Translations under genes and position numbers: made by a program | Shown: piece after piece, positions 103 through 63,055 of the stretch | Layout of the letters: every line of letters begins with the position of its first letter | Position numbering within the stretch: the stretch's first letter is position 1 | The notes under the pieces: generated by a model | Seen by the model: the letters and a program-made list of their open reading frames with translations, nothing else | Told to the model about the DNA's origin: nothing | The model's database searches: none | NCBI RefSeq assembly: GCF_004786015.1 | Contig: NZ_CP032096.1 | Coordinates: 1,984,001 to 2,048,000 of the forward strand | Source: Hydrogenovibrio crunogenus | GTDB taxonomy: Bacteria; Pseudomonadota; Gammaproteobacteria; Thiomicrospirales; Thiomicrospiraceae | Length of the DNA: 64,000 bases | Direction: 5' to 3'

Positions 103-957
103 TTAAACTTGAGACTTTAAAAACTGATTGAAATGCTGACGCTCGGTTTGCGCCATCCATTGATTGATTTGCCAGATATCCGCGACAGGTGCTTGCGTGA
201 AAGGCAATAAATGACAATAACCATCCGGCCCAAATTCCGGGGTCATGGTTGTAAAGGCTTTGCCCTGATCCAAATGATCATGCCAAATAGCTTGCCAAAA
301 AGTCTGATGCGAACGCAGTGCCGCTTCATACTCCGGTGCAGCCGGATGAGGTACTTGAGGTCCTTGATCGTATCCAACGCGAGCATGGACATGCGCCACC
401 CGTGGCACCAACTGCATCAATGTCTCCATTTCCGAATCCATCAGACGCTCACACACCACACACCAATGACTGATGTCCGCGGTCAACTTTAAATCCGGCA
501 ATTGCTGCACGATTCTTAAGGTCGACCACGGATTAAAGAAAGGACGACTCCGGTGCGTTTCAAAACTCAACGGCAGCCCATACTCTTTTGCAATACCTAA
601 CGCCTCGCCATAAAAGTCCACACTTTGAGATTCTTCCCAAGCATCACAACCGGTTAAACAGGTGGCCGCCACAGGCGACAATATCAAACTGGCTTCCAGC
701 CGTCTTTTAAAATCATCCAAGTGTTGTTTGGGCGTCCAATCTCGCTGAGGCACATAATCCCCACCGGTGACAATCTCGGCAATGTAATCCAATCCATTTT
801 GATTTAACTGATCGCGCCACTCTTTCTGTTCGGTAACGACTAATGGCGCTGGGCCTTCAATTCCATCAAACAAAGCGTCTTTGGCTTGAAGGCAGGCCTG
901 GTCAAATTTAAGCGTATTGCCCCAAAGGCTTTTAAACAATTTAAGTTCCATTCGCAT
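103..957 (-). CDS. TIM-barrel sugar phosphate isomerase/epimerase-like protein
   Basis: About 284 residues with the layout of the xylose-isomerase-like TIM barrel (AP endonuclease 2 superfamily). An acidic/His pair (SFETHRSRPF) falls near the middle, then TADISHW and HVHARVGYD, the usual metal-ligand segments of that fold. The substrate cannot be told from sequence. The start ATG shares one base with the stop of the upstream MBL gene (TGATG), so translation is probably coupled. A second ATG six bases on (951) has a better spaced GAG and is an alternative. A copy of the CAGGCCTGG word lies inside the gene at 893-901. Confidence 0.75.
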   Translation of the reverse strand: MRMELKLFKSLWGNTLKFDQACLQAKDALFDGIEGPAPLVVTEQKEWRDQLNQNGLDYIAEIVTGGDYVPQRDWTPKQHLDDFKRRLEASLILSPVAATCLTGCDAWEESQSVDFYGEALGIAKEYGLPLSFETHRSRPFFNPWSTLRIVQQLPDLKLTADISHWCVVCERLMDSEMETLMQLVPRVAHVHARVGYDQGPQVPHPAAPEYEAALRSHQTFWQAIWHDHLDQGKAFTTMTPEFGPDGYCHLLPFTQAPVADIWQINQWMAQTERQHFNQFLKSQV

Positions 958-1739
958 CACTCAAAATGTTTTGGAAAACGATTATGGCGCTGAAAAAATT
1001 CCCAGTCATGATTCGGCCACAAATTGGCTTCATTTTTTTGGCTTAGATATTTCAACTTCTGAATACTTTCAATCGCCAGTTGCTCATTGTCTTGCCAACA
1101 CAATCCCGGGGCGATTTCTTCTTCGATATTCTCAGAAAGATCGGCCGCGTCGCCCGCCAATAAAATCGGGCTGCCTTTTGGCATCTCAATCAACATCGAC
1201 ATATGCCCCGCAGTATGTCCCGGTGTTTCAATCGCGCTGACACCCGGCACCAAATCATACTCACCCGTTTGAATCTTCCAGTTCAAAGGCAATTCAAAAT
1301 CCGAAGCAAAATAGGCATCATCCGCCGGCTCTTTAGCCGCCTGCATTTCTTTTGCATGCACATGCACTTCCGCATGACAAAATTCACACAACCCACCCGC
1401 ATGATCAAAATGCAAATGACTACAAAAAACCAAATCAATATCTTCCGACTGAAGACCTAACACTTCCAAACGATTCGGCAGTCGCTCTTCTTCAGACATT
1501 TCTGGTGGACCAAACGGAAAGGCATCATTTTCGTAATATTGCTTTCTTTGGTCGTCTTGTTGAATCTTTTGGTAATCACACCCCACATCAAACAAAATTC
1601 GACCATTTGTCGTTTCAATCAAATATGCCAAAATCGGTGCTTTGATCAACTCTCCATGCCCTCTATTTCGAGTTGAAAGCGTTTTTTCGTAGGTATGTCG
1701 ACCGGTTAAAATCGGCCAAAATTTGGTTACTTGTGTCAT
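957..1739 (-). CDS. MBL-fold hydrolase, N-acyl homoserine lactonase-like
   Basis: 260 residues of a metallo-beta-lactamase fold. Visible metal ligands are H108, H110, D112 and H113 in SHLHFDHAGG, H175 in PGHTAGH, D197 in LAGDAAD and H244 in PNHDW. This is the complete dinuclear zinc set. Spacing and the GHTAGHMS segment match the AiiA/AttM group of quorum-quenching lactonases, but other lactonases or esterases of the fold look alike. The gene is middle of a minus-strand operon behind a desaturase and ahead of a TIM-barrel protein. That context points to a metabolic role as readily as to signal degradation. No AHL synthase is visible in the window. Confidence 0.8.
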   Translation of the reverse strand: MTQVTKFWPILTGRHTYEKTLSTRNRGHGELIKAPILAYLIETTNGRILFDVGCDYQKIQQDDQRKQYYENDAFPFGPPEMSEEERLPNRLEVLGLQSEDIDLVFCSHLHFDHAGGLCEFCHAEVHVHAKEMQAAKEPADDAYFASDFELPLNWKIQTGEYDLVPGVSAIETPGHTAGHMSMLIEMPKGSPILLAGDAADLSENIEEEIAPGLCWQDNEQLAIESIQKLKYLSQKNEANLWPNHDWEFFQRHNRFPKHFE

Positions 1740-1757
1740 AAGCCTGCTCTTTTAAGA

Positions 1758-2771
1758 TTAATGTGCGGTTAAAAAGGAAACCCCATCCACCCCGATAAAA
1801 CTTTCCCCTTCATCTTGCTTCACCGGTAGATTAACCGGATCGCCATTCAGGATTCTCGGCACACGATAACGATGAAAACTTTTGATTAAATGCTTAAAGG
1901 TCAAAATCTGCTGATAGTCGTTGCCGAACATCTCGGCATGCAGTTTCGGCAATCGATACCAAGGTTGCAGCATGCTTTTGTGATGCACATTGTGATAACA
2001 AAAATTCAACACCAACAAATTCACCCAAGGGTAACGCAGCGACAACAAATTAGAATAGGTATTATGTTCTTCAAACTCAGCGTCTCTGAGTTTCGCCTCT
2101 GGTCCTCTTTTCTGATCCAATGTTTCAAACACTTCATAAGTATGTTGATGCACATCCATAAAACGCATCACCGTCAAAAACATTAAATAAGCGATGGGAT
2201 ACAACCAAAGCACATCAATGGAAATGGACGCCAAGCCCCAGAAAAAAGCCACTCTTAAAATCAGAACCGTCACGACATGGGTTCTGCGTGCACGACGACT
2301 CTCTTTGATAAACGGAAGGACAATCACCAAAAAGTGCATCCAAATTTCCAGTGCCGGAATATACGCCCATTCGAAAGCTTTAATGACTTTTAAAAACAGA
2401 GGATGCTTTTGTAATAAAGGACGGAAATCAAAAGAAACCACATCGGCTCGGTCAATGTGATGTCGGTTATGTTTGTTTTGAATATCTTCAAAGTGAGAAT
2501 AACTGGTGCCCGTGACCCATAACAGGATTTCAGAAAACCACTGGTTATGTTTTTTATTCCTAAACAAACTGTGGTGCGCGGCTTCGTGAATCAAATAAGC
2601 GGCAATCACCATCGAGTGCGCCAACATCACCACACCAATTACATTCAGCCAAAGAGGCTCTGACAAAACAAACACAAAGCCAAACACATACGTTAACGCA
2701 ATATAGGTAAATGCTAAAAAATTAGGTAACTTTGCATCTTCATGCCTGAATAAAGACTGCTTGTTATCCAT
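1758..2771 (-). CDS. Membrane fatty acid desaturase family protein
   Basis: About 337 residues, with hydrophobic helices at the N terminus and around residues 140-205. The three His boxes of membrane di-iron desaturases are present: HEAAHH at 63-68, HNRHH at 102-106 and HNVHH at 261-265, with an extra HQH around 209-211. It should introduce a double bond or hydroxyl into an acyl chain in the inner membrane; the substrate is unknown. The ATG at 2771 is preferred over the GTG one codon earlier. It heads an operon with the MBL hydrolase 18 bases downstream. A perfect 11-base inverted repeat lies 25-62 bases upstream of the start. Confidence 0.88.
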   Translation of the reverse strand: MDNKQSLFRHEDAKLPNFLAFTYIALTYVFGFVFVLSEPLWLNVIGVVMLAHSMVIAAYLIHEAAHHSLFRNKKHNQWFSEILLWVTGTSYSHFEDIQNKHNRHHIDRADVVSFDFRPLLQKHPLFLKVIKAFEWAYIPALEIWMHFLVIVLPFIKESRRARRTHVVTVLILRVAFFWGLASISIDVLWLYPIAYLMFLTVMRFMDVHQHTYEVFETLDQKRGPEAKLRDAEFEEHNTYSNLLSLRYPWVNLLVLNFCYHNVHHKSMLQPWYRLPKLHAEMFGNDYQQILTFKHLIKSFHRYRVPRILNGDPVNLPVKQDEGESFIGVDGVSFLTAH

Positions 2772-4702: not shown

Positions 4703-7700
4703 TCAGCGCGATGAAGCAGAACTAATATGTTCATAAACCATTCCCAAAATCAAACGTGCAAACCCATTTTGGACCTGTTCATTACGAAGCACCTGTGTTG
4801 CCATATTTTGGTGGTTATCCATACTCTCGATAACAGCATTAGTAATCAAAGCCGGAAAATCCCCTAGCATCGTTTGTTCTGGAGTATTTACTTTAAACTG
4901 GGCCATTACACCTTCATTTTCCATCACTTTATCGCGAATTGTCTGAGCATAATTTAGCTTATCATCTTCAGTCAATTCCCCCGCAAACAACTCATTCATG
5001 ACTTCTACTATATGCGCAAGCGTATCTGCTTTGCGGTCTTTACCGTAAGCAGAACCTGGCTCTTTAATTCCACGTATTTCAGAACCTGTTAAATCGATGT
5101 TATAGGTCTTTTGATTTTTAATATTGTAATGAGTCATCTCCACTTCAGATAAGTCGATAGGAGGCTCATACTCGCCTGTTACTAGATTCGGAACCAGTCC
5201 TTTGGCAAAAGCATTTAACTTCTCTAACTCTTCATCACCATAGTCCACTATTTGTGATAAAAACTCATACATTCTCGCAAAGGTCCCTAAGTCTTTTTTG
5301 AAAATATCCAGCTCATCTTTATCTTCTTTCGAACCTTTCAGATCCATTTCCGCGTTATGAATTAAAGCCTCATCTTGATTGGCTTTTGCCATATTTAAAG
5401 CATCTCTTGCAGAGTTAATCGCCTGAACAACCCTCTTATATCGGTGATTAAATCGATCCGACGCTGGCTTAACCGCTGAAGCCATCGCTGCTTGTGTGCC
5501 TTTAGGATCAAAAAACGCTTTGGCAAACTGATCGACTTCTTGTTGGGTATAAATGGAACTTGAATCCAGTTTAATTTGTAAATCAAATATCAGATTTGGA
5601 TCCGTCACTGCATCAAGCTTAGCTGATGTATAGTAAGGATCAAATGCCTCTTTAATCTCTTCGGGTTTATTAAAAAAATCTAGAATAAACGTCTTATCTT
5701 TTCCTGGGTAGGTACGATTTAAACGTGACAATGTTTGCACCGCATCAACGCCGCTTAACTTCTTATCCACATACATTGCACACAGCTTTGGCTGATCAAA
5801 ACCAGTCTGGAATTTATTCGCCACCAGCATCACTTGATACTCATCGGTATCAAACGCCTTACGCATATCACGACCTTTTAACCCTGGGTTCTGATTAATT
5901 TCTGTATATTCTTTAGGCTCCCCTTCCACATCATCCACCACACTCCCAGAATAAGCGACCATGGCCTGTAAATTCGGATACCCCTGATCTTCAATGTATT
6001 GATCAAACGCAATCTTATAACGTACTGCTTCTTTGCGTGAAGACGTCACCACCATGGCTTTAGCTTTGCCGCCCAATAAAGGGGCGATATTGGTTCTGAA
6101 GTGCTCGATAATAATCTCGATTTTCTGTGCGATGTTGTATGGGTGCAGTTTCACCCACTTAGCCAGCTGAACCTTGGCTTTTTTACTGTCCACTTCTTTA
6201 TCATCATCGTGACTGGCCAGTTTGTAAGCCACATCGTAAGTGGTGTAGTTTTGCAGAACATCCAAAATAAAGCCTTCTTCAATGGCCTGTTGCATTGTGT
6301 AAATATGAAAAGGTTCTGGCTTATTTTCATCGGATAATGGTAATTCAGGATGCTTAGGACGCCCAAACATCTCCATAGTTTTTGGTTTTGGTGTCGCCGT
6401 AAAGGCAAAGAAACTGATGTTCTTGCGATTGGTATTGGCTTCCAAGGTGGCATTCAACACATCTTCCGCTGAAATCTCTTCGTCCTCTTCTATCTGTTGA
6501 GCACTCAGTACTTCCTTTAGCTTTTTAGCGGTGCTGCCAGACTGCGAAGAGTGCGCTTCATCCGCAATAATGGCGAATGTTTTATCTTTTAGCGAGGTCC
6601 TTTCTTGAATCACTTCCAACACAAACGGAAAGGTTTGAATTGTGACCACAATAACCGACGCGGAATGTTCTAATGCATCCGCTAACTTAGCTGACTTGCT
6701 CCCCTCGCCTTCTTCTCGGTTAATAGTGACCACCACGCCACTTTTATGGTCAAACTGAGTAATAGTCTCTTGCAGCTGAGAATCCAGAACGGTTCGATCT
6801 GTTAACACTATGACGGTATCAAAGACTTGTTGTTGCCCTGTATCATGAAGAGATGAAAGCTGGTGTGCCAACCAGGCGATGGAATTGGATTTTCCCGATC
6901 CCGCACTATGTTGAATCAGATAGTTATGCCCCGATCCCTGTTCTTTGGCATCAGCAATAAGTGCTCGAACTGCATCAAGCTGGTGATAACGCGGAAAGAT
7001 CAGCGATTCTTTCAAATGCTTCTTGCCGGTATGATCTTCTTTGTACTCTTGTTGCAGGTGCAAAAAACGCCCTAATATGCGTAACCAAGTGTCCTTGGCA
7101 AAAATCTCTTCCCATAGATAGGCAGTCGTATAACCATGTGGATTAGGAGGATTGCCCGCCCCGCCGTTACGCCCCTTGTTAAACGGCAAGAAAAAGGTAT
7201 CTTTGCCGTTTAATTTAGTGGTCATATAGACTTCATCGGTACTCACCGCAAAGTGCACCAAAGCACGCTTTTTAAACGCTAACAGAGGCTCTTCTTGTCT
7301 GGTTTTGGGGTCTTTAGGTTGGCGGTCGTATTTGTATTGATTAATGGCATCCTGTACGTTCTGGGTAAAATCGGTTTTCAGCTCTAAAGTTGCCACCGGC
7401 AAACCATTCACAAACAGCACCAAATCAATCGAATTCTGATTATGTTCGGAATAATAAACTTGCCTTACCACACGTAAAATATTCTGCTGATACTTTTTTA
7501 CCAGGCCTGGTGTGGGTAAATCGGGCTGAAACTGACATAATCGAAACTTACCGCCAATAAACTTCATCTCATTACGCAAATAAAACAACGCGCCCTGCTT
7601 ATCCAGGTTCTTGGCCACCTCTTTCACCAAGTGCGAATCCGTATCCGTCGCATAACGCTTGGCAAATTTCTCATAAGCTTCAGGTTGCGTGTTTTTGACA

Positions 7701-7828
7701 AAACTCACCACATCTTCAGGATACAAAGCCAACGCCTTGTCGTAGTCATCAGATTGTCCTTCAATCCAATCATGATTGGTAAGATGCTGGATGATTTCAG
7801 TTTCAAATACGATTTCTTTATGTTTCAT
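4703..7828 (-). CDS. hsdR: Type I restriction enzyme R subunit
   Basis: 1041 residues, the usual HsdR length. The N-terminal PD-(D/E)xK nuclease shows D135 and ELK at 149-151. The Swi2/Snf2-type translocase follows, with Walker A SAGSGKS at 308-314, DEAH at 423-426, a FTATPK motif, and the late helicase motif with QTLSRLNRT. HsdR joins HsdM2S to cut unmethylated DNA after ATP-driven translocation. It starts 11 bases after the fic stop and is the last gene of the hsdM-hsdS-accessory-hsdR run. A copy of CCAGGCCTGG lies at 7501-7510. No frameshift is seen, so it is probably functional. Confidence 0.96.
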   Translation of the reverse strand: MKHKEIVFETEIIQHLTNHDWIEGQSDDYDKALALYPEDVVSFVKNTQPEAYEKFAKRYATDTDSHLVKEVAKNLDKQGALFYLRNEMKFIGGKFRLCQFQPDLPTPGLVKKYQQNILRVVRQVYYSEHNQNSIDLVLFVNGLPVATLELKTDFTQNVQDAINQYKYDRQPKDPKTRQEEPLLAFKKRALVHFAVSTDEVYMTTKLNGKDTFFLPFNKGRNGGAGNPPNPHGYTTAYLWEEIFAKDTWLRILGRFLHLQQEYKEDHTGKKHLKESLIFPRYHQLDAVRALIADAKEQGSGHNYLIQHSAGSGKSNSIAWLAHQLSSLHDTGQQQVFDTVIVLTDRTVLDSQLQETITQFDHKSGVVVTINREEGEGSKSAKLADALEHSASVIVVTIQTFPFVLEVIQERTSLKDKTFAIIADEAHSSQSGSTAKKLKEVLSAQQIEEDEEISAEDVLNATLEANTNRKNISFFAFTATPKPKTMEMFGRPKHPELPLSDENKPEPFHIYTMQQAIEEGFILDVLQNYTTYDVAYKLASHDDDKEVDSKKAKVQLAKWVKLHPYNIAQKIEIIIEHFRTNIAPLLGGKAKAMVVTSSRKEAVRYKIAFDQYIEDQGYPNLQAMVAYSGSVVDDVEGEPKEYTEINQNPGLKGRDMRKAFDTDEYQVMLVANKFQTGFDQPKLCAMYVDKKLSGVDAVQTLSRLNRTYPGKDKTFILDFFNKPEEIKEAFDPYYTSAKLDAVTDPNLIFDLQIKLDSSSIYTQQEVDQFAKAFFDPKGTQAAMASAVKPASDRFNHRYKRVVQAINSARDALNMAKANQDEALIHNAEMDLKGSKEDKDELDIFKKDLGTFARMYEFLSQIVDYGDEELEKLNAFAKGLVPNLVTGEYEPPIDLSEVEMTHYNIKNQKTYNIDLTGSEIRGIKEPGSAYGKDRKADTLAHIVEVMNELFAGELTEDDKLNYAQTIRDKVMENEGVMAQFKVNTPEQTMLGDFPALITNAVIESMDNHQNMATQVLRNEQVQNGFARLILGMVYEHISSASSR

Positions 7829-7839
7829 ATTGTCTCTAT

Positions 7840-9012
7840 TTAAAAGTCTTCTATAAAACCTGGCATCAACTCACCCTTTTTATTTACCAAGATCAGCTTT
7901 AATTCTTTCAGCTTAGATAAATCTCTAGACTTGGTTTTATCGGTCAGCTTGCTATACAGCGCTAAATACCACGGCGCCTTTTTCAACTCACTCAAAGACA
8001 TTCCAGCACCATTATGTAAAACCGCATTCACAATCGCATACTGTCGGTCATTAATCTGCTTTTCATCATGTATTCGCTTCAAGTTCGCTTCAAATAACAC
8101 AATATGAATCAGTCGATTCACACGATCATGTAAGTGATTAATCGTTTCCAGCATGCCCTCTAAAAAGAATTCCACGAATTCTGCATTGGCAAATTCATTC
8201 TTCTTGTCCGCCGCCTTTCTACAACGATTAAACAGCGCAAAATACTCATGAATATTTCTTAAATAGTAATTCGCTTGGGCAAAAGGTGCATACCGAAACC
8301 CGTCAGAATACAGAATACCCGCTTCCAATACGCGCCCGACCCGGCCATTTCCATCCCAAAAAGGATGTATCAACTCAAAATACAAATGAACCAATGGGGC
8401 GCGTATCAATGCAGGCACGCCTTTTTCGGCCAGCTCAGCCTGCCACGCCAATAAAGATTCCAGCAATAGTCGAATATCTTTCCCAAGCTGAGGCGGCTTA
8501 TAAACGCCCCCATGTTCGGCATTACCCACCCGTGTTACGATTCCTTTTGGATTGTCTCGCAACAATCCTGGTTCGTTGTTTTCATTATCGGCTTCTAAGC
8601 CGTCATAAACTAATTGATGAATTTTCAGAACATCGGCTAGTGAGGGTTGCCAACCTTTTTGCACCGACACCTCACGAATATAATCGTAGGCATTTCGAAT
8701 ATTCACTGCACGCTTCTGCTGAATGTTTTGAACTTGCTCTGGAGAAAGCGATAACGCCTCTTGAGTCTCCTGCTCAGAAAGCTCGCCGCCTTCAATCGTA
8801 TTGGTGCCAAAAACCGAACTGACTACCACCTCTTTTTCAAGGTCGTTCGCCACCGTCGCTAATGGCGAGGTACGAAAACGTTCCTGAGCATCCATAACCC
8901 GCTGCAACAACACAGCCAAATCGTCATCATTTAGGCCAAGCTGAAACTTAACAATGCCTGACCGGATCGTCTCAACTCGTTTTGTTAAGGTTTCGTCCAA
9001 CAAAATGTCCAT
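7840..9012 (-). CDS. Fic-domain protein (AMP transferase), class II-like
   Basis: 390 residues. The Fic signature HPFWDGNGRVGR occupies 216-227 with an intact catalytic His. An N-terminal inhibitory-type motif (S/T)xxxE(G/N) is present as TNTIEG at 70-75, the class II arrangement in which an alpha helix blocks ATP binding. A winged-helix-like tail follows from about residue 320. Fic enzymes usually AMPylate a hydroxyl side chain on a target protein; the target is unknown. The gene lies directly upstream of hsdR, a position where other type I loci carry anti-phage or toxin genes. A partial, decayed copy of its own first codons lies 91 bases upstream (9085-9103). Confidence 0.92.
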   Translation of the reverse strand: MDILLDETLTKRVETIRSGIVKFQLGLNDDDLAVLLQRVMDAQERFRTSPLATVANDLEKEVVVSSVFGTNTIEGGELSEQETQEALSLSPEQVQNIQQKRAVNIRNAYDYIREVSVQKGWQPSLADVLKIHQLVYDGLEADNENNEPGLLRDNPKGIVTRVGNAEHGGVYKPPQLGKDIRLLLESLLAWQAELAEKGVPALIRAPLVHLYFELIHPFWDGNGRVGRVLEAGILYSDGFRYAPFAQANYYLRNIHEYFALFNRCRKAADKKNEFANAEFVEFFLEGMLETINHLHDRVNRLIHIVLFEANLKRIHDEKQINDRQYAIVNAVLHNGAGMSLSELKKAPWYLALYSKLTDKTKSRDLSKLKELKLILVNKKGELMPGFIEDF

Positions 9013-9084
9013 TAAATTGTCCAGATAAAAAAAAGAGTATTTTACTTATTATTCAAACATTTACATAGATTTAACTATACTTAA

Positions 9085-9103
9085 CGTCTAAAAAAATGTC
9101 CAC
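9085..9103 (-). repeat. Partial duplicate of fic gene start
   Basis: On the minus strand this 19-base stretch matches the first codons of the fic gene (8994-9012) at 16 of 19 positions. It would read (V)DIFLD against MDILLD. It begins immediately after the stop of the GIY-YIG gene. It could be a scar of gene insertion between the two; the match is short and the DNA AT-rich. Confidence 0.4.
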
Positions 9104-9753: not shown

Positions 9754-9787
9754 TACTGTTAATATCTTGGTTCATTTATGACTTCCT

Positions 9788-10495: not shown

Positions 10496-10496
10496 C

Positions 10497-10625
10497 CCCC
10501 CTCCTCACATCAATCTTGTTGTTGACCAGAGCGGTTTTGCTTTCTTTTAGTAGCAATATAATTTGTTGGGATTTTTCGATTTTCATATATATTTTTGGTA
10601 ATTTTCTCATCTAAATACGAAACCG
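10497..10625 (-). pseudogene. Decayed hsdS 3'-end remnant
   Basis: The reverse strand reads VSYLD in one frame, then after a frameshift KIEKSQQ, LLKESKTAL and KIDVR. It parallels the end of the intact hsdS (VDYLD, LIEKSQQ, LLKERKTAL, KIDVR). The DNA also aligns, with shared blocks gcggttttgc and tgttgggatttttcgatt (plus strand). One internal gap of about 12 bases removes the AAVTG codons. It sits between the pentapeptide-like gene and the next accessory gene. A 65-codon open frame here (10510-10707) is this remnant read partly out of frame, not a separate gene. Confidence 0.82.
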
Positions 10626-10649
10626 TTTTATTTCCTTTATCTATTACAA

Positions 10650-13680: not shown

Positions 13681-15665
13681 TAGGCATGCACCTCATTCAG
13701 AAGCTTAAGAATATCCGCTGTAACCGCATCCAAATCCGCATCAATTTCTTCCAAGGCTCTGGGTGGTGTGTATTCATAGAAGTGTCGGTTAAATGGTATT
13801 TCGTAACCGACAATGCCTGTTTTTCCGTCTTTGTCATCGGTTTTGTTTTGATCTATCCACGCATCCGGCACATGGGGTAACACTTCTCGTTCAAAATAGG
13901 TTTGTATGTCTTCTTTTAATGGGATGTTTTCGTAATCCCGTAAGTCTGGATTGGGTTCTGGGTTACCTTTTTTGTCGGTGCAAATCACTGCATTATCGTT
14001 GTGCTCGGAGATGTGTTTTTGTATTAACTTAAATTGCGCGGCGGTGAGTTTGACTTTAAAGTGGGTTTTAAAGATTTCCCGGTCAAGCAGTTCGTCTTCT
14101 GGAATGGATTTTAAAGCGTCTAACACTTCGGTTTTAAGCAGGCCTGGTAGTTTTTCAAAGGCTTTGTCGGCTTGCAGGGCTGCTAATCTGTTTTCATCAT
14201 GCGGGTAAAAGGCGAGCTGCAATGGGCGCTCAACGGTAATGCGTCTAAAACCAAAGTCGGTGGTATCAAACACCTTGGAGGTTATATTCGCTTCAAAGTC
14301 TCCGTAAAGCCGGTTAATTTCTTTGATGTGCGTTTCATTGAGCTGTTTGCGTTTTGATCCCAATGATTTACGCATGGGCTCACTCATGGCCGTGGCATTA
14401 ATCAGTTGTACCTTGCCTTTACGCTCTGAGGTTTTGTGGTTGGACAAAATCCAGATATAGGTGGCAATGCCGGTATTAAAAAACATATCGGTTGGCAAAG
14501 CGATAATGGCTTCCAGCAGGTCGTTTTCTAACACATAACGCCGTATTTCGGATTCGCCCGACCCTGCGCCGCCAGTAAACAAAGGGGAACCATTGAGGAT
14601 AATGCCAATGCGGCTACCCGGCTGTTTATTGGCTTTATCCGCTTTTTCGGCTGGTCGCATTTTAGAAATCAAATGCATTAAAAACAGTAAAGAGCCATCG
14701 CTTACTCTGGGCAGGCCTGGTCCAAATCGGCCTTCGTAGCCTTTTAAGGTATGTTCGTCTTTAACGGCTTTTTCGACCTTTTTCCATTCCACACCAAATG
14801 GCGGATTGGAGAGCATGTAATCGAACTTTTGGTCATCAAGCTGGTCGTCACTGAGGGTGTTGCCGTATTTAATGTTTTCAACCGGCTGACCTTTTATGAG
14901 CATGTCGGCTTTACAGATGGCGTACGATTCCGGGTTTAACTCTTGCCCAAAGGTGACGAGCTTGGCTTGTTCGTTCATCTCATGAATGTATTCCGAACCG
15001 GAGCTTAAAAACCCGCCGGTGCCCGCGGTGGGGTCATACAGGCTGCGTACAATACCAGGCCTGGTTAAAACGTCATCATCCAAACTAAACAGTAACGAGG
15101 TGGTTAAACGCACAATGTCTCTGGGGGTAAAGTGTTCCCCGGCAGTTTCGTTGGAGGCTTCGGCAAAACGACGAATCAGCTCTTCAAAGATTAAGCCCAT
15201 GTCGTGATTGGTGACCACCTCGGGCTTGAGGTTAATGGCCGTGAATTTTTCGACCACTTTGAACAACAGGTCGGATTCGTCCAGATAATCCAATTGTTCG
15301 ATAAACTTATAACGCTCGAAGATTTCACGCGTATTGGCGCTGAAATCATTGATATAAGCCTCCAAGTTGTCTTTTAAATTGTTTGGATCACCCAGCAAAG
15401 AAGCCAGATTATAAGGTGAGGTGTTGTAAAAGCTTTGGCCGGATTTTTTGGTTAGAAAGGCTTCTAATGGAATATCTAAATGCTTGCGCGCTTCATACTC
15501 ATCAATCACGTCTTGTTTGGTGGGCTCCAACACACATTCCAAACGGCGCAACAACGTAAAGGGTAAAATCACTTTTCCATAATCTGCTTGTTTATAATCT
15601 CCACGCAGCAGGTCGGCGACCGACCAGATAAACGAAGCAATTGAAGAAAAGTTTGTGTTAGACAT
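13680..15665 (-). CDS. hsdM: Type I DNA adenine methyltransferase M subunit
   Basis: 661 residues: an N-terminal HsdM helical domain, then an N6-adenine methylase with [10 protein letters not shown], the SAM motif DPTAGTGGF at 211-219 and the catalytic NPPF at 287-290. The C-terminal extension (from about 500) is longer than in the classical EcoKI/EcoR124 subunits. It is first gene of the R-M operon, with a good ribosome-binding site (AAGGA) before the ATG. It contains three copies of the CAGGCCTGG word (14139, 14712, 15056), the densest cluster in the window. Confidence 0.96.
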
Positions 15666-21656: not shown

Positions 21657-21680
21657 AAAAACCACCAGGCCTGGTGGTTT
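21657..21680 (-). terminator. rpoD terminator built on the CCAGGCCTGG palindrome
   Basis: The stem AAACCACCAGG/CCTGGTGGTTT has the CCAGGCCTGG word at its centre, flanked by A and T runs. It lies about 65 bases past the rpoD stop and upstream of the tRNA on the same strand. It probably ends the rpsU-dnaG-rpoD transcript. Confidence 0.75.
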
Positions 21681-27540: not shown

Positions 27541-27564
27541 AAAACGACCAGGCCTGGTCGTTTT
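27541..27564. terminator. Bidirectional terminator on the CCAGGCCTGG palindrome
   Basis: AAAACGACCAGG / CCTGGTCGTTTT is a perfect 24-base palindrome between the convergent tsaD and wzz genes, whose stop codon lies at its edge. The central word is the window-wide motif, and A and T runs allow termination in both directions. Confidence 0.85.
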
Positions 27565-30605: not shown

Positions 30606-30632
30606 AAAAAACGACCAGGCCTGGTCGTTTTT
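30606..30632. terminator. Bidirectional terminator on the CCAGGCCTGG palindrome
   Basis: AAAACGACCAGG / CCTGGTCGTTTT again forms a perfect stem, here between the convergent folB and FliG-C-like genes. Its 24-base palindrome is the same as that at 27541-27564. Confidence 0.85.
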
Positions 30633-33756: not shown

Positions 33757-35229
33757 ATGATGCAGCTGTACACTACTCAAAGCACGCAAGCGATTGAACG
33801 TTTCGCCATTGATCAGCAAAGCATTCCTGGACTCCTTTTGATGAAACGCGCCGCTTATTTTAGCTACCAGACCCTTCGAAGATGCTATCCCGATTCACAA
33901 AATGTTCTGGTCGTCTGCGGCACGGGCAACAATGGCGGCGATGGATTGGCTCTGGCGCAGTATGCACTGATTGACGGTTGCAATGTTTCCATTGCGTTAC
34001 TGGGATCACAAGATAGAATTAAAGGTGACGCCCAAACTTGTTTGCAGGAATGCCTGGCACTTGGCCTCTCGCCGCAACCGTTTGACTCTGCCTTACTTGA
34101 AAATGTCGACACGATTGTGGACGCGGTGTTTGGCACAGGTTTAAATCAGCCAGTGACCGGAAAGTACGCTGAGATTTTTGAACGCTTGAACGAAACGCAT
34201 ACGCCCATTCTGGCACTCGATATTCCCAGCGGTTTACAAGCTGACACCGGCAACATCTTAGGCACGGCGATTCGTGCCAGCCACACTTGCACATTTATCA
34301 CCCATAAGCCGGGACTCTACACTTACCTTGGCCCCGAAACGGCAGGCAAAGTTCATTACAGTCCATTATTTCTAAATCAGAGCAACTACAGCGGACATCC
34401 TCCTATCGCTGAAAGCCACTCTCTCAAATATTGGCTAAACCAACTGCCTAAAACGCCTGCATCGAGCCATAAAGGCACGCGAGGCACCCTCTTGCTGATC
34501 GGCGGAAACCATCATATGATGGGCGCCATTCAGTTAGCCAGTTTGGCTGCTTTAACCACAGGAGCAGGCCTGGTCAAAATCATCACCCAAACTGATCACT
34601 TAACGGCTTTAACCCAGGCTCAGCCTGAACTTATGACTTACACCCAACAAGATTTTGAGCAACAAGCCGCTTCGGCTAAAGTCATTGGCATTGGCCCCGG
34701 ATTGGATCAAGATGATTGGGCAGTTGATCGCTTCCATGAGACGCTTAATCAAGACATACCCAAAGTGTTAGATGCCGATGCATTAAACCTGTTAGCGAAA
34801 TCGCCGCAACAAGATGATGATTGGGTGCTTACGCCCCACCCGGGAGAGGCAGCCCGATTACTGGGAACATCAACGGAAGCCATTCAAAGCAACCGAATCG
34901 AAGCCGTCAAAAGACTGCAACAAAAGTATGGTGGCGTCATTGTATTAAAAGGCAATGGCACCTTGGTTTACGATGGTAAGCAAATGGAATTGTGCACCGC
35001 TGGCAATGCCGGCATGGCAGTGGGCGGAATGGGAGATGTTTTAACCGGTGCGATCACCAGTTTTATCGCACAAGGCATGGATTTATATTCCGCTGCATGT
35101 TTAGGGGTTTCTCTACATGCACATAGCGGCGACACTCTAGCCAATCAAAAAAGCCAAGCCGGAGTCATTCCTTCCGACCTGGCTTTGGTAATGAGTCAGC
35201 TGTTAAGCTATGCCAGCAAAAATGCTTGA
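33757..35229 (+). CDS. nnr: Bifunctional NAD(P)H-hydrate epimerase / dehydratase
   Basis: 490 residues combining both repair activities. The N-terminal YjeF epimerase has GTGNNGGDGLALAQY and DIPSGL. The C-terminal ribokinase-like ADP-dependent dehydratase has LIGGNHHMMGA, TPHPGEAARLL and AGNAGMAVGGMGDVL. It repairs hydrated NADH and NADPH. It contains one CAGGCCTGG copy (34565). It ends one base before the convergent purK stop. Confidence 0.96.
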   Translation: MMQLYTTQSTQAIERFAIDQQSIPGLLLMKRAAYFSYQTLRRCYPDSQNVLVVCGTGNNGGDGLALAQYALIDGCNVSIALLGSQDRIKGDAQTCLQECLALGLSPQPFDSALLENVDTIVDAVFGTGLNQPVTGKYAEIFERLNETHTPILALDIPSGLQADTGNILGTAIRASHTCTFITHKPGLYTYLGPETAGKVHYSPLFLNQSNYSGHPPIAESHSLKYWLNQLPKTPASSHKGTRGTLLLIGGNHHMMGAIQLASLAALTTGAGLVKIITQTDHLTALTQAQPELMTYTQQDFEQQAASAKVIGIGPGLDQDDWAVDRFHETLNQDIPKVLDADALNLLAKSPQQDDDWVLTPHPGEAARLLGTSTEAIQSNRIEAVKRLQQKYGGVIVLKGNGTLVYDGKQMELCTAGNAGMAVGGMGDVLTGAITSFIAQGMDLYSAACLGVSLHAHSGDTLANQKSQAGVIPSDLALVMSQLLSYASKNA

Positions 35230-35230: not shown

Positions 35231-36340
35231 TTAGACCTTAGGCAGAAACGCACTCAGCTGATTGATTTGCTGATAAAGCTCATCTTCACTGTCCGCCACC
35301 AAGTTGATATGCCCGAGTTTTCGCCCCGCTCTTTCAGCTTTATCGTACAAATGCAAAAAAGCCTTCGGCATCGTCAAAACGTCTTTAACGGGGCCTGTTT
35401 CACCAATAATATTTACCATGGCGGCAATTTCCTGGCGCGGTGAGGTGTCACCCAACGGCAATCCGGTAATCGCCCGAATATGATTTTCAAACTGACTGGT
35501 CAATGCGCCTTCGATTGTCCAATGCCCTGAATTATGAACTCGCGGTGCCATTTCATTCGCCACCAGTCCATCCACCGTTTCAAAAAGCTCCAGCGTTAAC
35601 ACGCCGACATGATCCAACTCATCCAACAAAGCTTTCATATATTGTTCAGCCTGAGTTTGAACCTCTTCTGAAATCTGACGGGCCGGTGCGATGGTGTAAC
35701 GTAAAATCCCTTCATGATGGACATTCTGCACCAGCGGATAATAAACATGCTGATTATCAACATTACGAACCGCGACAATGGAAAGCTCGCGGCTAAAATC
35801 GACAAAGCCTTCCAAAATAAGTTCTCGCCCGCCGACTTCCTTCCAGGCCTGGTCAATTTGAGTGGTTTCTTTAATGACAAACTGACCTTTACCGTCATAG
35901 CCTTCTGTGGTGGTTTTCAACACGGCAGGCAACCCAATTTCATCCACCGCTTGTGTCAAGCTTTCTAATGAATCCACCACTTGATAAGGAGCACAAGGAA
36001 TATTTAAGCTATCAAACATGCCTTTTTCACGGCCACGATGTTGAGAATAATACAGCGACTTTTCCGCCGGAAAGACCGGAGTGGTTTCGGCAATTTTCCG
36101 AACCAACTCAACCGATGTATTTTCACTTTCATACGTCATGACATCGGAAAAGGCAATCAGCTCCGACAAGGAAGACGCTTCATCTTTTTCTGTATACATA
36201 TGCCCCAACAGTGCCGAAGGTTCTTCATGACTGGCGCCTAAAAACCCGAATTTTTGTCCTAACGGATAGCCGGCAATCGCTAACATGCGACCAAGTTGTC
36301 CGGCACCTAAAACACCAATCTTTTTTGTCACTGGGGTCAT
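35231..36340 (-). CDS. purK: 5-(carboxyamino)imidazole ribonucleotide synthase
   Basis: 369 residues from the ATG after GAGGA (a TTG four codons upstream is less likely). The Rossmann start KIGVLGAGQLGRMLA is followed by an ATP-grasp domain with TTTEGYDGKGQFV and the NEMAPRVHNSGHWT active site. It makes N5-CAIR from AIR, ATP and bicarbonate. It follows purE with a hairpin between them. A CAGGCCTGG copy lies at 35844. Confidence 0.97.
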   Translation of the reverse strand: MTPVTKKIGVLGAGQLGRMLAIAGYPLGQKFGFLGASHEEPSALLGHMYTEKDEASSLSELIAFSDVMTYESENTSVELVRKIAETTPVFPAEKSLYYSQHRGREKGMFDSLNIPCAPYQVVDSLESLTQAVDEIGLPAVLKTTTEGYDGKGQFVIKETTQIDQAWKEVGGRELILEGFVDFSRELSIVAVRNVDNQHVYYPLVQNVHHEGILRYTIAPARQISEEVQTQAEQYMKALLDELDHVGVLTLELFETVDGLVANEMAPRVHNSGHWTIEGALTSQFENHIRAITGLPLGDTSPRQEIAAMVNIIGETGPVKDVLTMPKAFLHLYDKAERAGRKLGHINLVADSEDELYQQINQLSAFLPKV

Positions 36341-44470: not shown

Positions 44471-44492
44471 AATGCCCAGGCCTGGGCGTTTT
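44471..44492 (+). terminator. Terminator on the CCAGGCCTGG palindrome after gshB
   Basis: GCCCAGGCCTGGGC is a perfect 14-base palindrome followed by GTTTTAAA, 14 bases past the gshB stop. It should end the gshAB transcript before apbE. Confidence 0.75.
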
Positions 44493-47669: not shown

Positions 47670-48952
47670 GACTTTTAATCGAAAATGCTCGTATCATTGA
47701 TCCGAGCCAACAAATGGATCAAGTATCGAACCTTTATATCTCTCGTGGACGTATCCTTAAAATCAGCGACACCGATCCGGAAGGCTTTACAGCGGATCAA
47801 GTGATTGATGGTGCGGGAAAATGGGTGTTGCCAGGCCTGGTCGATTTACATGCCCGCCTTGCAGAACCCGGTAGCCGTTATGAAGGAAACATTGCATCAG
47901 AAACCAAAGCGGCTGTCTCCGGGGGCATTACCACCATCTGCAGTCCACCGGACACCAACCCAGTGAATGACACACAAGCAGTCACTGAACTCATTCAGCG
48001 TCGTGCTCGCCAAGCAGCTACGGCATTCGTATTGCCGATCGGAGCACTGACCCAAGGGTTGGAAGGCAAAATGCTCAGCAATATGGCGGCATTGAAAAAT
48101 GCCGGCTGCATTGCTCTGAGTCAGGCCAGTCAACCCATACAAAACCCGCTGACAATGAAAAATGCGATGGCTTATGCAGCCAGCAATGAAATCTTACTCA
48201 TGCTACGCTGCGAAGACGCCGAACTGAAAAATAATGGTGTCGTGCATAGTGGTGTGATTAGCAGCCGTTTGGGTTTGTCTGAAATTCCAGCTTCCGCAGA
48301 AACCGCGGCACTGGCGCGTGACTTGATTCTGGCTGAAGAAACCGGCGCACGCGTCCATTTCTCCCAGATATCCACCGCACGTTCTCTGGAAATGATTACC
48401 GATGCGAAAAAGCGAGGCATGCCGGTAACCTGTGATGTGGCCATCCACCAGCTGCACCTGACCGAATATGATGTGATGGACTTTGATTCCTTGTTCCATG
48501 TGACGCCGCCATTACGAACGCATGAAGATAAAGAAGCCCTGCGTCTCGGCGTTAAAATGGGCATTATTGATGCCATTGTCAGTGACCACACGCCTTTGGA
48601 TCGTGATGTCAAATTACTGCCGTTTGGAGAAAGTGAGCCAGGTATCAGTGGATTGGAAACCTTACTGCCCTTAACGTTAAGATTAGTCGAAGAAGGCGTT
48701 CTCGACCTCAACACCGCTATCAGCGCCTTAACGCAACGCCCGGCCGATATTCTGGGCATTCATAACGGCAGCTTGATTGAAGGGCATTATGCCGATTTCA
48801 GTTTATTCAACCCTGAAACACCTTGGATATTAAACCGCTCAGAAATGGTCAGCCAAGGGGATAATTCACCTTTCCAAGGGTGGGAGTTCACCGGGCAAAT
48901 TGAAACGACTTATTTCCAAGGCCGCCCCGTCTATCGTAACAATCAAGTATAA
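47666..48952 (+). CDS. Dihydroorotase-like PyrC', probably non-catalytic
   Basis: 428 residues of the dihydroorotase fold. The metal-binding HxH that should follow LPGLVDLH reads HAR (H62, R64), so one zinc ligand is missing, although VSDHTPLD near the C-terminal active site remains. This is the PyrC' pattern of Pseudomonas, where the homologue stabilises aspartate carbamoyltransferase. A separate active dihydroorotase is expected elsewhere. The start is TTG after GAGG, overlapping the pyrB stop. A CCAGGCCTGG copy (47831-47840) encodes part of the LPGLV motif. Confidence 0.9.
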
Positions 48953-48961: not shown

Positions 48962-49558
48962 GTGTCGGTGGTTTTACAGTTTATCCAACAGATAGAACAG
49001 CCGAATGGCTATTGGCTAGTAGAGTTTGAGCAGAAAAACACGCAACCTGTGCCTGTTAATTTGCAACTCACGATAAATGAAATTGCCTTGCAACTGTTTG
49101 CCCAACAGGACAACCGGTTACAATTTCTGACAACTCAGGCAGTGTCCTTACCCCCGGGTAGCGAATTTAATGCCTCAAAAAACAGCCAGGCCTGGCTATT
49201 TTTACCGGAACTCGTTAACAATCTGTTACCAAACCACCCCATTCTGATCGTGGCTTCGGGAATCGAAATGGCCACGGCTTTTTATCTTTCCAAAACGTTA
49301 TCTCAAAACTTTGACGTACGAACCATTTTACATACAGCAGATACTTTTCCTTTCCAAATCAAACCGGCGCGGTTTATGTTCGCTGATTTCCCGGCTTATG
49401 CCATTGGTGCTTCCACATTACTGGAAGATTGGAAAGTGCCCAATCGCCTTTGTTGCAATACTTTTCTACCGGGAAGCTACGAAGGCAGTCTCTCCGAACT
49501 GTTGACAGAATGGACGCCCCCTTCCGACTGGCAAACCCTCGACTGTAATCAACTTTAA
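48962..49558 (+). CDS. Unknown protein at end of pyr operon
   Basis: 198 residues from a GTG start 10 bases after pyrC'. It opens with beta-rich sequence and has a middle segment ILIVASGIEMATAFYLSKTL like a Rossmann or NAD-binding region. The end, VPNRLCCNTFLPGSYEGSLSELL, resembles the tail of PyrK-type electron-transfer proteins, but no flavin-binding RxYS or Cys cluster is seen. A role with pyrimidine enzymes is inference from position. Contains CCAGGCCTGG at 49186-49195 as part of a 14-base palindrome. Confidence 0.6.
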   Translation: MSVVLQFIQQIEQPNGYWLVEFEQKNTQPVPVNLQLTINEIALQLFAQQDNRLQFLTTQAVSLPPGSEFNASKNSQAWLFLPELVNNLLPNHPILIVASGIEMATAFYLSKTLSQNFDVRTILHTADTFPFQIKPARFMFADFPAYAIGASTLLEDWKVPNRLCCNTFLPGSYEGSLSELLTEWTPPSDWQTLDCNQL

Positions 49559-55211: not shown

Positions 55212-55780
55212 TGTCACCAGTCGGTCAAGGTGGTTTGTTCTTAATTCAATTTTTAGCAGGCCTGGTTATTTTTACCCTACTGTTACGTTTTTTCATGCGT
55301 GCAACCTATGTCGATTGGCGACACCCTATCGTGACCTTTATTGCCAAAGTCACCAACCCATTGTGCGCCCCACTCAATACCATTTTACCGAAACCACACC
55401 GCTGGGATTGGAGTGCCATTTTGACCGCTATGTTGGTACAAGCGCTTTTAGTCATCTTAATCGGATTTTTAACGGATCGTAGTTTTGGGGTGGGGTTGAT
55501 TGTTATTTCTTCTGTCACCGAGGTTATGAACCAACTTCTGGATATGATGTTCTGGCTGATTATCATTCAAGTGATTCTAAGCTGGGTGTCGCAGGGCTAC
55601 AATCCAAACACAGCGATTTTCGATCAAATGGCACAACCTATTTTAAGCCCTTTTCAAAGACTGATTCCTCCGATGGGTGGACTCGATTTATCGCCGATTG
55701 TGGCCATCATTGCCATCAAATTGACACAGATTGTCGTTGTCGGTTCCATTGCGCAACTGGGCCAAAACATGTTGCTTTAG
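55211..55780 (+). CDS. YggT family membrane protein
   Basis: 189 residues with two YGGT repeats, each a pair of hydrophobic helices followed by a conserved loop (VTNPLCAPLNTILP; MAQPILSPFQRLIPP). It is implicated in osmotic and potassium homeostasis or membrane organisation. Coupled to proC. CAGGCCTGG at 55257 lies in the first helix. Confidence 0.93.
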   Translation: MSPVGQGGLFLIQFLAGLVIFTLLLRFFMRATYVDWRHPIVTFIAKVTNPLCAPLNTILPKPHRWDWSAILTAMLVQALLVILIGFLTDRSFGVGLIVISSVTEVMNQLLDMMFWLIIIQVILSWVSQGYNPNTAIFDQMAQPILSPFQRLIPPMGGLDLSPIVAIIAIKLTQIVVVGSIAQLGQNMLL

Positions 55781-62076: not shown

Positions 62077-62994
62077 CAAGTCGTCAGGAACCATTTTCAT
62101 CGCATCTTGTAACTCACAATGTTGCTCAAAAAGCGTTATTTTTTGCGCATGTTCATTACTCAGAAATTCAAATTCAACGGCAACTCGGTATGAAAATTCT
62201 GCACTTTTCAGTTTTTTATTTAAAACAATTTTGCCTCGGCAAACCAAGATGTGATCATCCAGCTGCATAAAAACATTCATATGTGCAAAGTTTTCAAACT
62301 TCTGATTGGTCAAAAAACTGAATCCACCCGCGCTTAAATTAATCTTTTGAACAGCCCAGGTTTCCGGGTCAGAAATAGAATGATATGCCTCTTTTAAACG
62401 CCCTAAAATGGTTTCATATAAATTCAACCGCTCAATCAAAAGAATCAATGCTTTTGCCGGCGCAATCCCTTTGTCACTTAACTCTTTCAAGTTTTTGACA
62501 TAGTCTCGTTCGTTAAAGTTCGGCTTGATTTTTCTGGGAAATAAAAAGATTTTTCCATCAATACTGTTCTCTACCGATTCAATCAATTCATGAATATGAT
62601 CAGTCAGTTGTAAGAAAAACCCTTCTATCAATGGGCCGACTTTCGACTCGTTGCGAACATCGGGTAGTTTATGTTTATGGTCTTCTCTTAAACGGAACTT
62701 ATAATCCGATCTCAAACGCGGATCGACCTGATCAATCAAATCATCCAATAACCAAGCCATATAATTAATTCGATGATTCAGCATATAAAAGATATGTAAA
62801 GCGTCCGATTCGGCTGAAAAAGCTTCTGCCAACAGTTCTTTGATCGTTAGGTTTAAATGTTCGAGATGCGCTTCTTCCTGCTCTGAAATTAATTTTTTTC
62901 GATTTACTTTCAGAACATATCCCTTATCGTCGACGGTTTCAAAATACAAAGGAACCTCAACATCATATCGAAAAAAACGTCTTACATTTGCCAT
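62068..62994 (-). CDS. PilZ-like c-di-GMP protein with large insertion, paralogue
   Basis: 308 residues with the same layout as 60700-61641: RxxxR at R5-R9 (RRFFR), NxSxxG at N219-G224 (NLSAGG), PilZ-like strands after it (HMNVFMQL, YRVAVEFEF), and about 210 mostly helical residues between. The shared design indicates a local family duplicated and then diverged. Convergent with the unknown helical gene. Confidence 0.7.
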   Translation of the reverse strand: MANVRRFFRYDVEVPLYFETVDDKGYVLKVNRKKLISEQEEAHLEHLNLTIKELLAEAFSAESDALHIFYMLNHRINYMAWLLDDLIDQVDPRLRSDYKFRLREDHKHKLPDVRNESKVGPLIEGFFLQLTDHIHELIESVENSIDGKIFLFPRKIKPNFNERDYVKNLKELSDKGIAPAKALILLIERLNLYETILGRLKEAYHSISDPETWAVQKINLSAGGFSFLTNQKFENFAHMNVFMQLDDHILVCRGKIVLNKKLKSAEFSYRVAVEFEFLSNEHAQKITLFEQHCELQDAMKMVPDDLLN

Positions 62995-63046
62995 CTAACT
63001 TTCCTTAATCCGCTTTTCAAATGCGTCTGTCATCTGCTGTTTCTCC

Positions 63047-63055
63047 CAGGCCTGG
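63047..63055. repeat. CCAGGCCTGG word between esterase and PilZ-like gene
   Basis: A copy of the window-wide palindrome lies just past the esterase stop and about 50 bases upstream of the PilZ-like gene. Flanking pairing extends little, so a terminator is doubtful. A 3-prime AT-rich run (CTATTTATTG on the plus strand) follows, as at most copies. Confidence 0.7.

Follow-up and report, generated by a model that had tools for sequence, protein, structure and literature searches.

A candidate DNA uptake sequence with several dialects in Hydrogenovibrio and related sulfur-oxidising bacteria

Introduction

Why should one short GC-rich word recur, inside genes as well as between them, along a stretch of the Hydrogenovibrio crunogenus genome? 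A preliminary description of the window (the whole 64-kb stretch analysed here) proposed that CAGGCCTGG could be an uptake or other recognition word of this lineage. In the portions of PMC13020248, PMC7811141 and PMC1939737 that bear on the subject, uptake sequences are described only for Neisseriaceae and Pasteurellaceae. No literature report of such words was found for the Hydrogenovibrio/Thiomicrorhabdus/Thiomicrospira group.

Results

Occurrence of the word in the window

All 15 plus-strand starts of CAGGCCTGG given in the preliminary description were exact, and the palindrome CCAGGCCTGG, claimed for ten of the copies, was confirmed at ten sites (Table 1). When both strands were read, CAGGCCTGG had 25 matches at 15 distinct sites. 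In 100 dinucleotide shuffles the mean number of matches was 0.29 and the largest was 2, and none reached 25. The expectation of about 0.1 copies proposed earlier becomes about 0.3 with the shuffles, and the enrichment still holds. The G+C content of the window, estimated by eye at about 43%, was computed as 42.6%.

The copies had been divided into four intergenic hairpins and a remainder in coding DNA. Ten sites do lie in coding DNA, where the readings LPGLV, QAW and TRPG are all present in window ORFs, but with greedily called ORFs five sites, one more than supposed, are intergenic (21666, 27549, 30616, 44477 and 63047). Four of these five take the form of a terminator stem and fold as hairpins, to between -12.7 and -17.4 kcal/mol, although only two of them are clearly better than shuffled sequences (z of -5.4, -3.3, -2.2 and -1.2). 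The site at 63047 showed no hairpin fold (-4.2 kcal/mol). The AT-rich stretch reported on the plus strand exists, but it is not limited to that strand, as T-tracts are often found on both sides. The five non-palindromic copies all have the same orientation.

Table 1. Sites of the word in the window, with their flanks, locations and counterparts in relatives
Coordinates	Strand	Word and flank	Location	Counterpart in relatives
892..901	+	GCAGGCCTGG-TCAAATTT, non-palindromic	ORF 103-960 (-)	
7501..7510	.	CCAGGCCTGG	ORF 4703-7828 (-), HsdR-like	
14138..14147	+	GCAGGCCTGG-TAGTTTTT	ORF 13680-15665 (-), HsdM-like	
14711..14720	+	GCAGGCCTGG-TCCAAAT	ORF 13680-15665 (-), HsdM-like	
15055..15064	.	CCAGGCCTGG-TTAAAA	ORF 13680-15665 (-), HsdM-like	
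21665..21674	.	CCAGGCCTGG, T-tracts both sides	Intergenic hairpin, between tRNA-Met and rpoD-like gene	Word at same place in SC-1 and CG07
27548..27557	.	CCAGGCCTGG, T-tracts both sides	Intergenic hairpin	
30615..30624	.	CCAGGCCTGG, T-tracts both sides	Intergenic hairpin	
34564..34573	+	GCAGGCCTGG-TCAAAAT	ORF 33757-35229 (+), NAD(P)H-hydrate dehydratase/epimerase-like	Near-miss GCAGGCCTAG in SC-1
35843..35852	.	CCAGGCCTGG-TCAATTT	ORF 35231-36352 (-)	Same word, same coding place in SC-1
44476..44485	.	CCAGGCCTGG-GCGTTTT	Intergenic hairpin, after glutathione synthetase-like gene	
47831..47840	.	CCAGGCCTGG-TCGATTT	ORF 47666-48952 (+), amidohydrolase family	
49186..49195	.	CCAGGCCTGG-CTATTTTT	ORF 48962-49558 (+)	
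55256..55265	+	GCAGGCCTGG-TTATTTTT	ORF 55211-55780 (+), YggT family	
63046..63055	.	CCAGGCCTGG-CTATTTAT	Intergenic, without strong hairpin	

Abundance, flanks and distribution in the genome

The abundance seen in the window extends to the whole genome, where CCAGGCCTGG occurs 367 times and its reversed control is absent, while CAGGCCTG occurs 482 times and its reversed control 4 times. In a sample of 864 kb that includes the window, CCAGGCCTGG was counted 282 times on both strands (141 sites), and an order-2 Markov model expects 1.4. The comparison with a Markov model suggested in the preliminary description therefore places the word far above expectation. A restriction to terminators with no enrichment inside genes, which would have argued against that proposal, is not what was found: 101 of 176 sampled sites are coding, 74 are intergenic and 1 is partial, with intergenic DNA making up 10% of the sequence.

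A conserved flank was also found, as had been predicted. The extended motif is CCAGGCCTGG-YNRWTTTT, with the flank on one or both sides, and it is present in coding DNA too. The complete YNRWTTTT accompanies 34 of 173 coding half-sites vs 3 of 847 other CCTGG, and the number of T residues at +4 to +8 differs between the two sets with a Mann-Whitney p of about 2e-29. At least three T residues at +4 to +8 on both sides are found at 63 of the 74 intergenic sites of the 864-kb sample.

The sites are spaced more regularly than random ones (coefficient of variation 0.63 for 139 gaps, vs 0.87 +/- 0.05), and none of 500 simulations was as regular as the observed set. Of the gaps between listed positions, the widest (37 kb) looks like ribosomal and RNA-polymerase operons, which would agree with words arising in tolerant DNA only. 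CAGGCCTGGT occurs 215 times in forward and 180 times in reverse orientation genome-wide, which indicates no strong strand rule. No orientation switch between replichores was seen in the sample, where the summed forward/reverse counts are 37/31 as far as 1.28 Mb and 43/28 past that point.

Dialects in related genomes

The host genome (G000), a member of the Hydrogenovibrio/Thiomicrorhabdus/Thiomicrospira group, was compared within a set of 62 genomes. CAGGCCTG is abundant in 32 of them. Five of the other 30 carry other words, and in four of the five, all from the same genus as the window, the right half CCTGG-YNRWTTTT is kept and the left half is changed. The words of these four (G006, G007, G012 and G013) are one-sided, oriented, non-palindromic 18-mers with a common right half: CCCAGCCTGG-CAGATTTT in G006, CCCAACCTGG-YAGATTTT in G007 and G012, and CCACCCCTGG-CGATTTTT in G013. 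CAGATTTT is found on the right side in both G006 and G007, and the left halves within the genus are CCAGG, CCCAG, CCCAA and CCACC. The right flank of the oriented dialects is conserved and the left one essentially is not. That G013 should have a dialect of its own was inferred from 222 copies of CCTGGYNRWTTTT in a genome with only 18 CAGGCCTG and 5 CCCARCCTGG, and it was then found in a fresh sample. Whole-genome totals for the two orientations in oriented-dialect genomes, not split by replichore, are 188/143, 202/169 and 207/196.

The word is palindromic in G000 and also in G026, whose ACCGGCCGGT has only the palindromic plan in common with the other dialects. No clear AT flank was found in G053, and the flank is weak in G020. 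Samples of G024, G030, G042, G004, G029 and G028 yielded no word. This survey of related genera came out mostly as the preliminary description had predicted, and the dialects are evidence beyond it. Half-conserved, oriented dialects are built like those of the Haemophilus uptake signal sequence (USS) and the Neisseria DNA uptake sequence (DUS); palindromes for methylation, terminators and polarity sites have another anatomy.

Most of the sites tried in alignments between relatives did not align. Alignments were obtained at 4 of 9 sites from the host genome to SC-1 and at 4 of 5 from SC-1 to the host genome, at few sites to CG07 or JE_KL2, and around comEC at 0 of 5 and 0 of 4 to G006. Some sites face near-miss sequence with no gap between the host genome and SC-1, as where CCAGGCCTGG in SC-1 faces CCAAGCCAGG in the host genome. 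Gain of the word by substitution fits the few sites that aligned.

Competence genes

Also as anticipated, genes for competence and pili are present. ComEC was found in the host genome and in 56 of the 62 genomes; the host genome also has four PF00437 ATPases, with pilus ATPase and secretin genes, and one of its operons was read as that of an MSHA-type pilus. The presence of ComEC and of a word do not always coincide, as ComEC is present in the six genomes named above whose samples yielded no word and was not found in the word-bearing G035 (82% complete). None of the 62 genomes had a ComP_DUS (PF16732) match over the cut-off, and one, G051, had a match below it, in a run that had no positive control since 14 control genomes were also without a match. 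Two minor pilins, at least one of which was matched in 57 of the 62 genomes, point to no particular reader, because a match is found regardless of the word and is missing in the word-rich G048.

Discussion

CCAGGCCTGG with its AT flank is probably this lineage's DNA uptake sequence, a candidate that would work like USS and DUS. The abundance, enrichment in coding DNA, flanks, dialects and com/pil genes uphold this part of the original proposal; on the other side, the search for a reader protein gave none, and samples of several relatives that have ComEC showed no word. We infer a receptor, a bias in uptake and a drive. The half-site CCTGG-YNRWTTTT would be bound by a DNA receptor that a type IV pilus displays at the cell surface. 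Retraction of the pilus would then pull the DNA in, and the T-tract would make it easier for the DNA to kink on its way through the secretin. ComEC would move one strand into the cytoplasm, where the strand would recombine. Because word-bearing fragments would enter more often, alleles that create the word by point mutation would spread, and the word would accumulate evenly where it is tolerated, in intergenic DNA and weakly constrained codons, often to be reused as a terminator stem. Should the preference of the receptor shift, the genome would drift to a new dialect in which, within the genus, the right half stays and the left half changes. Palindromic dialects have the half-site on both strands, so that binding could start from either side of the site.

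A broader reading, close to an even call but tilted slightly against, would be that DNA uptake with self-recognition arose a third time, independently, in the sulfur-oxidising Thiomicrospira-Hydrogenovibrio-Thiomicrorhabdus group. Its words would be modular: the receptor would read a constant half, CCTGG with the T-tract, and the dialect would depend on a second half that changes fast; this second half would mirror the first in palindromic dialects, where the site works from both sides, and sites would be oriented otherwise. For the putative reader, this reading would point to a minor pilin from an MSHA-like pilus, and not to a ComP or ComN homologue.

T-tract flanks are known for USS and not for DUS, and the flank plan of USS is nRWWWWW. 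In USS as in the word described here, a purine and an A/T tract come after a GC-rich core (AT-tracts in PMC7811141). USS are likewise found in genes and terminators, evenly spaced and gained by point mutation (PMC1939737), a type of gain that here fits the few aligned sites, and they have two dialects with a common inner core (PMC12616744). The cores are unrelated (AAGTGCGGT in USS vs CCAGGCCTGG here), and neither AAGTGCGGT nor ACAAGCGGT is among the best 24 over-represented 8-, 9- or 10-mers of the 864-kb sample. The density of CAGGCCTG, about 1 per 5 kb, is below the 1 per 1 kb or so of H. influenzae (PMC7811141). The uptake words described for H. influenzae and Neisseria are non-palindromic (PMC1939737), whereas in the host genome and several relatives the candidate word is palindromic. 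As in Neisseria, where related species have distinct DUS variants around a constant core and some family members have none (PMC3630211), dialects are found here, and the functional DUS core CTG lies, perhaps by chance, inside the CAGGCCTG- and CCTGG-based dialects, though not in ACCGGCCGGT. The palindromic forms and the lack of a ComP_DUS match above the cut-off set the present words apart from DUS.

The sulfur-oxidiser group may be a further bacterial lineage with self-DNA marks. If so, marks of this kind have evolved more than once and do not depend on life with an animal host, as these sulfur oxidisers are free-living. With several dialects in one genus, and words absent or replaced, close relatives would allow tests of the reader, dialect switching and species walls. 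Since the USS receptor is so far only predicted, as ComN (PMC12616744), it would help to have another system with T-tract flanks to compare it with.

The alternative that survives best, though unlikely, is that the word resembles the highly iterated palindromes (HIP1 and alternate HIPs) of cyanobacteria, for which accumulation by DNA methylation and repair has been proposed (Elhai 2015; PMC4390886), and serves repair or recombination. The GC-rich palindromes of G000 and G026 and their exchange between relatives are consistent with it, as over-represented GC-rich palindromes are also swapped for others among HIPs (PMC4390886). Among copies with a single mismatch, the first and last base are the ones most often changed (23 and 11 copies, at most 8 for any other base), as reported for HIP1 (PMC4390886), and two adjacent C5-methylase-like ORFs lie at L016 1-2531 in a motif scan of about 37% of the genome. 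However, the inner hexamer is not enriched: AGGCCT outside CAGGCCTG is below expectation (204 vs 269), and GGCC is depleted (3888 vs 5788 expected). HIP1 extensions keep the palindrome (PMC4390886), whereas one-sided T-tracts and the oriented 18-mers of the four same-genus genomes do not.

Slightly less likely still is a binding site, spread over the chromosome, for a structuring or cell-division protein (nucleoid-associated, or similar to SlmA, Noc or MatP). Even spacing, AT-tract flanks and the palindromic form would suit a dimeric DNA-binding protein, and the even spacing of USS was once read in this way (Karlin, cited in PMC1939737). Every one of the 40 stretches has palindromes, at 1 to 6 per 20 kb, also beside the GC-skew switch near 1.33 Mb, and they are thus neither Ter-only nor Ter-excluded. 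The non-palindromic dialects and the replacement of the word within a genus fit a conserved dimer poorly, and samples of several genomes showed no word.

It is very improbable that the word is simply a favoured stem of intrinsic terminators, a palindrome with a T-tract evolved at gene ends. The excess of intergenic sites, their T-tracts on both sides and the three window hairpins out of four that beat shuffles at z < -2 are in its favour, but it is largely refuted by the copies inside genes, where the T-tract is enriched too, and the non-palindromic words of relatives cannot make a stem from one copy. A polar site of the Chi or KOPS type, for recombination or segregation, is suggested by a short, abundant, GC-rich word and the five co-oriented non-palindromic window copies; it is more remote again and is contradicted by the orientation of CAGGCCTGGT, which does not follow the replichores in the sample. 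Least credible is a small mobile element, MITE or REP-like, as the source of these many near-identical short inverted repeats, a reading contradicted by conservation that stops about 8 bases beyond the core and by aligned coding copies that face near-miss sequence without gaps.

Abundance and distribution of the word

The preliminary description had reported a 9-mer, extended to a palindrome in ten copies, as over-represented in the window, and the recount bore this out. All 15 start positions were exact, with 25 matches on both strands at these 15 sites against a shuffle mean of 0.29. The single contig of the genome under study, in which the window occupies bases 1,984,001-2,048,000, has 2,453,259 bases and contains 482 copies of CAGGCCTG and 367 of CCAGGCCTGG (reversed controls, 4 and 0, respectively). 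One-mismatch neighbours were scarce in the 864 kb sample of this genome (0 to 11 each), apart from the variant with an initial G or a terminal C, which was counted 23 times. Palindrome density was 1 to 6 per 20 kb stretch throughout the sample, and the gaps between sites were more even than chance (CV 0.63 vs 0.87 +/- 0.05; 0 of 500 simulations were as low).

Among the positions listed, which span the first 362 kb, the longest word-free gap was 37 kb (325-362 kb). Its ORF sizes, tRNAs and alpha-operon leader fit ribosomal and RNA-polymerase operons. From this resemblance, genes under strong constraint would appear to be kept clear of the word; the stretch does not look like a mobile island. 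The second contigs of relatives, used as a plasmid comparison, had 3 copies of CAGGCCTG in 20 kb (G020), 2 in 16 kb (G059), 10 in 20 kb (G032), 0 in 3.4 kb (G006) and 0 in a 1 kb piece without any G or C (G023), a mixed control with too few numbers. Features found in the course of the analysis are collected in the table.

Features of interest (L, sampled stretch of genome DNA with local coordinates)
Feature	Location	Strand	Remarks
Type I restriction-like locus (HsdR-, HsdM-, HsdS-like)	window 4703-15665	-	carries four word copies
Fic-family gene	window 7840-9012		inside the restriction-like locus
Pentapeptide-repeat gene	window 10650-12347		inside the restriction-like locus
HipA-like gene	window 17006-18280	+	near the restriction-like locus
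Two C5-methylase-like ORFs, then 619-aa and 279-aa ORFs	L016 1-5206 (genome 420,001-425,206)		methylase-like ORFs in opposite directions
MSHA-type pilus operon, predicted	L021 296-9172	+	from protein sequences
Prepilin-like protein, 458 aa	L216 9277-10653	+
Two tandem c-di-GMP-I riboswitches	L270 235-313 and 412-490	+	by a 179-aa ORF starting at 465

Flanking sequence and apparent gain or loss of words

The motif extends beyond the core word. When both sides of 141 palindromes were averaged, the consensus adjoining the core was Y-N-R-W-T-T-T-T, with little conserved further out. The Haemophilus USS has the same plan, a core followed by an A/T flank (nRWWWWW). AT-tracts adjoining the USS core are described in PMC7811141.

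The 176 CAGGCCTGG-type sites in the sample comprised 101 coding, 74 intergenic and one partial, coding DNA being 90% of the total. At least three T residues at +4 to +8 were present on both sides of 63 of the 74 intergenic sites, which look like two-way terminators. At the coding sites, such a tract was found on one side in 51 cases, on both in 28 and on neither in 22. The full YNRWTTTT occurred in 34 of 173 half-sites at coding sites, but followed just 3 of the 847 CCTGG found elsewhere in coding DNA; T residues at +4 to +8 averaged 2.9 and 1.4, respectively. Sites too close to the end of a stretch were excluded from the flank tests, as were, in the coding test, those whose flank left the ORF. 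Since the T-tract is enriched at coding sites over other CCTGG, it is not a by-product of terminators or codon use.

The window and the relative Hydrogenovibrio sp. SC-1 have in common the word at 21666 and the coding word at 35844, the latter in an alignment of 68% identity. At other sites a word was opposed without gaps by a near-miss, as with CCAGGCCTGG in SC-1 vs CCAAGCCAGG in the window and, in the opposite case, GCAGGCCTGG in the window vs GCAGGCCTAG in SC-1. This looks like gain and loss of words by substitution, a process argued for uptake sequences in PMC1939737. The alignable sites were few: with SC-1, 4 of 9 in one direction and 4 of 5 in the other, and round comEC with G006, 0 of 5 and 0 of 4.

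Dialects among relatives

A DnaG search identified Hydrogenovibrio, Thiomicrospira and Thiomicrorhabdus as neighbours. The comparison set was 62 family genomes, and an order-level search gave the same 62. CAGGCCTG was present in 236-1173 copies in 32 of them and in 0-74 in the other 30, a split that cuts across genera (in Hydrogenovibrio, 7 of 11 rich and 4 of 11 poor). Each of the four word-poor Hydrogenovibrio members bears another word. The dialect of G006 is CCCAGCCTGG-CAGATTTT, and that of G007 and G012 is CCCAACCTGG-YAGATTTT, words in the repeat-rich G007 sample being counted as distinct places. CCCARCCTGG occurs 331, 371 and 403 times in G006, G007 and G012, respectively, and never more than 15 times in any of the remaining 59. 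The fourth, G013, has 18 copies of CAGGCCTG and 5 of CCCARCCTGG, yet 222 of the shared right half CCTGGYNRWTTTT. Its dialect, CCACCCCTGG-CGATTTTT (10 copies), came from a separate 80 kb sample, the first one, of small low-GC contigs, being uninformative. A further conserved T-run at +12 to +14 in G013 is reminiscent of the second AT-tract of the USS. In these four genomes conservation is strong in the right flank and almost lacking in the left, so that the motif is directional.

Words were also found in other genera: ACCGGCCGGT in G026 (49 sites in 100 kb), (A/G)CAGGCCTG(T/C) in G023 and G047, GCAGGCCTGGT in G053, and ACCAGGCCTGGT in G020 and G061, the last shared with the Hydrogenovibrio genome G005. 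Counter to a uniform flank rule, G053 lacks a clear AT flank and that of G020 is weak. Altogether 37 of the 62 genomes have a word, and eight of the other 25 were sampled. No word was seen in 80 kb of G024, 100 kb of G030, 61 kb of G042, 80 kb of G004, 60 kb of G029 or the short samples of G050 (40 kb) and G028 (20 kb); in the G051 sample, repeats swamped the word count. The repeat-rich stretches concerned are L134-L138 (G007) and L190-L192 (G051). In addition, L175-L177 of G020 hold a repeat of GTTTCAATCCACGC-like units, with 38 counts within four 1-kb bins, presumably a CRISPR array.

Interpretation of the word

On most computable features, the candidate uptake word behaves like DUS and USS. 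It is a candidate recognition word that is genome-wide, forms dialects and has the anatomy of an uptake sequence, in a lineage for which no report was found. The literature matches listed held no report of uptake words in the Hydrogenovibrio/Thiomicrospira/Thiomicrorhabdus group, which falls short of proving novelty. According to PMC13020248, uptake motifs were sought in terminators of thousands of genomes and reported for Neisseriaceae and Pasteurellaceae.

The strongest rival is a HIP-like palindrome driven by methylation, because relatives exchange one palindrome for another as cyanobacteria swap HIP palindromes (PMC4390886). Its standing is lowered by the inner hexamer, which outside the word shows no enrichment (204 vs 269 expected), and by the oriented dialects of relatives, which have half of the motif in common. 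The locus with two C5-methylase-like ORFs is perhaps a restriction or defence island, and no word copies lie within it. Three other readings were rejected. A terminator-only reading leaves the 101 coding copies unexplained. A mobile element would need insertions; conservation is short, and the coding sites that aligned show gap-free near-misses. Chi or KOPS would need polarity and none was found, nor did orientation switch at the GC-skew change in the sample.

Candidate uptake machinery and pilins

If the candidate is an uptake word, its receptor may lie on a type IV pilus. ComEC was detected in 56 of the 62 genomes, including the one under study (NCBIfam ComEC_Rec2, 385 bits). The latter also has four PF00437 ATPases, read by length and context as GspE, MshE/PilB and two PilT/PilU. 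Apart from the T2SS-like one, the sole PilB-type ATPase lies in the predicted pilus operon, whose gene names we take to be of the MSHA type. No separate major PilA was found in this genome by PF07963; a T2SS-like pseudopilin set is located at 305-307 kb, and four pilin-like proteins are clustered at 527-533 kb.

No ComP_DUS homologue scored over the cut-off among the 62 genomes. The two minor pilins tested fail to predict the word, at least one being matched in 57 of 62 genomes, word-bearing or not. Comparison of pilin and ComEC identity in ten relatives gave a weak hint, the pilins of G061 being closer than its ComEC implies; no argument is built on it. The prepilin-like protein has in its C-terminal part GDDTLYV-like repeats, which we take to be as in RTX-type calcium-binding repeats. 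In G011 and G061 the match covers the whole protein; in G009, G010 and G014 it is limited to some 260 aa.
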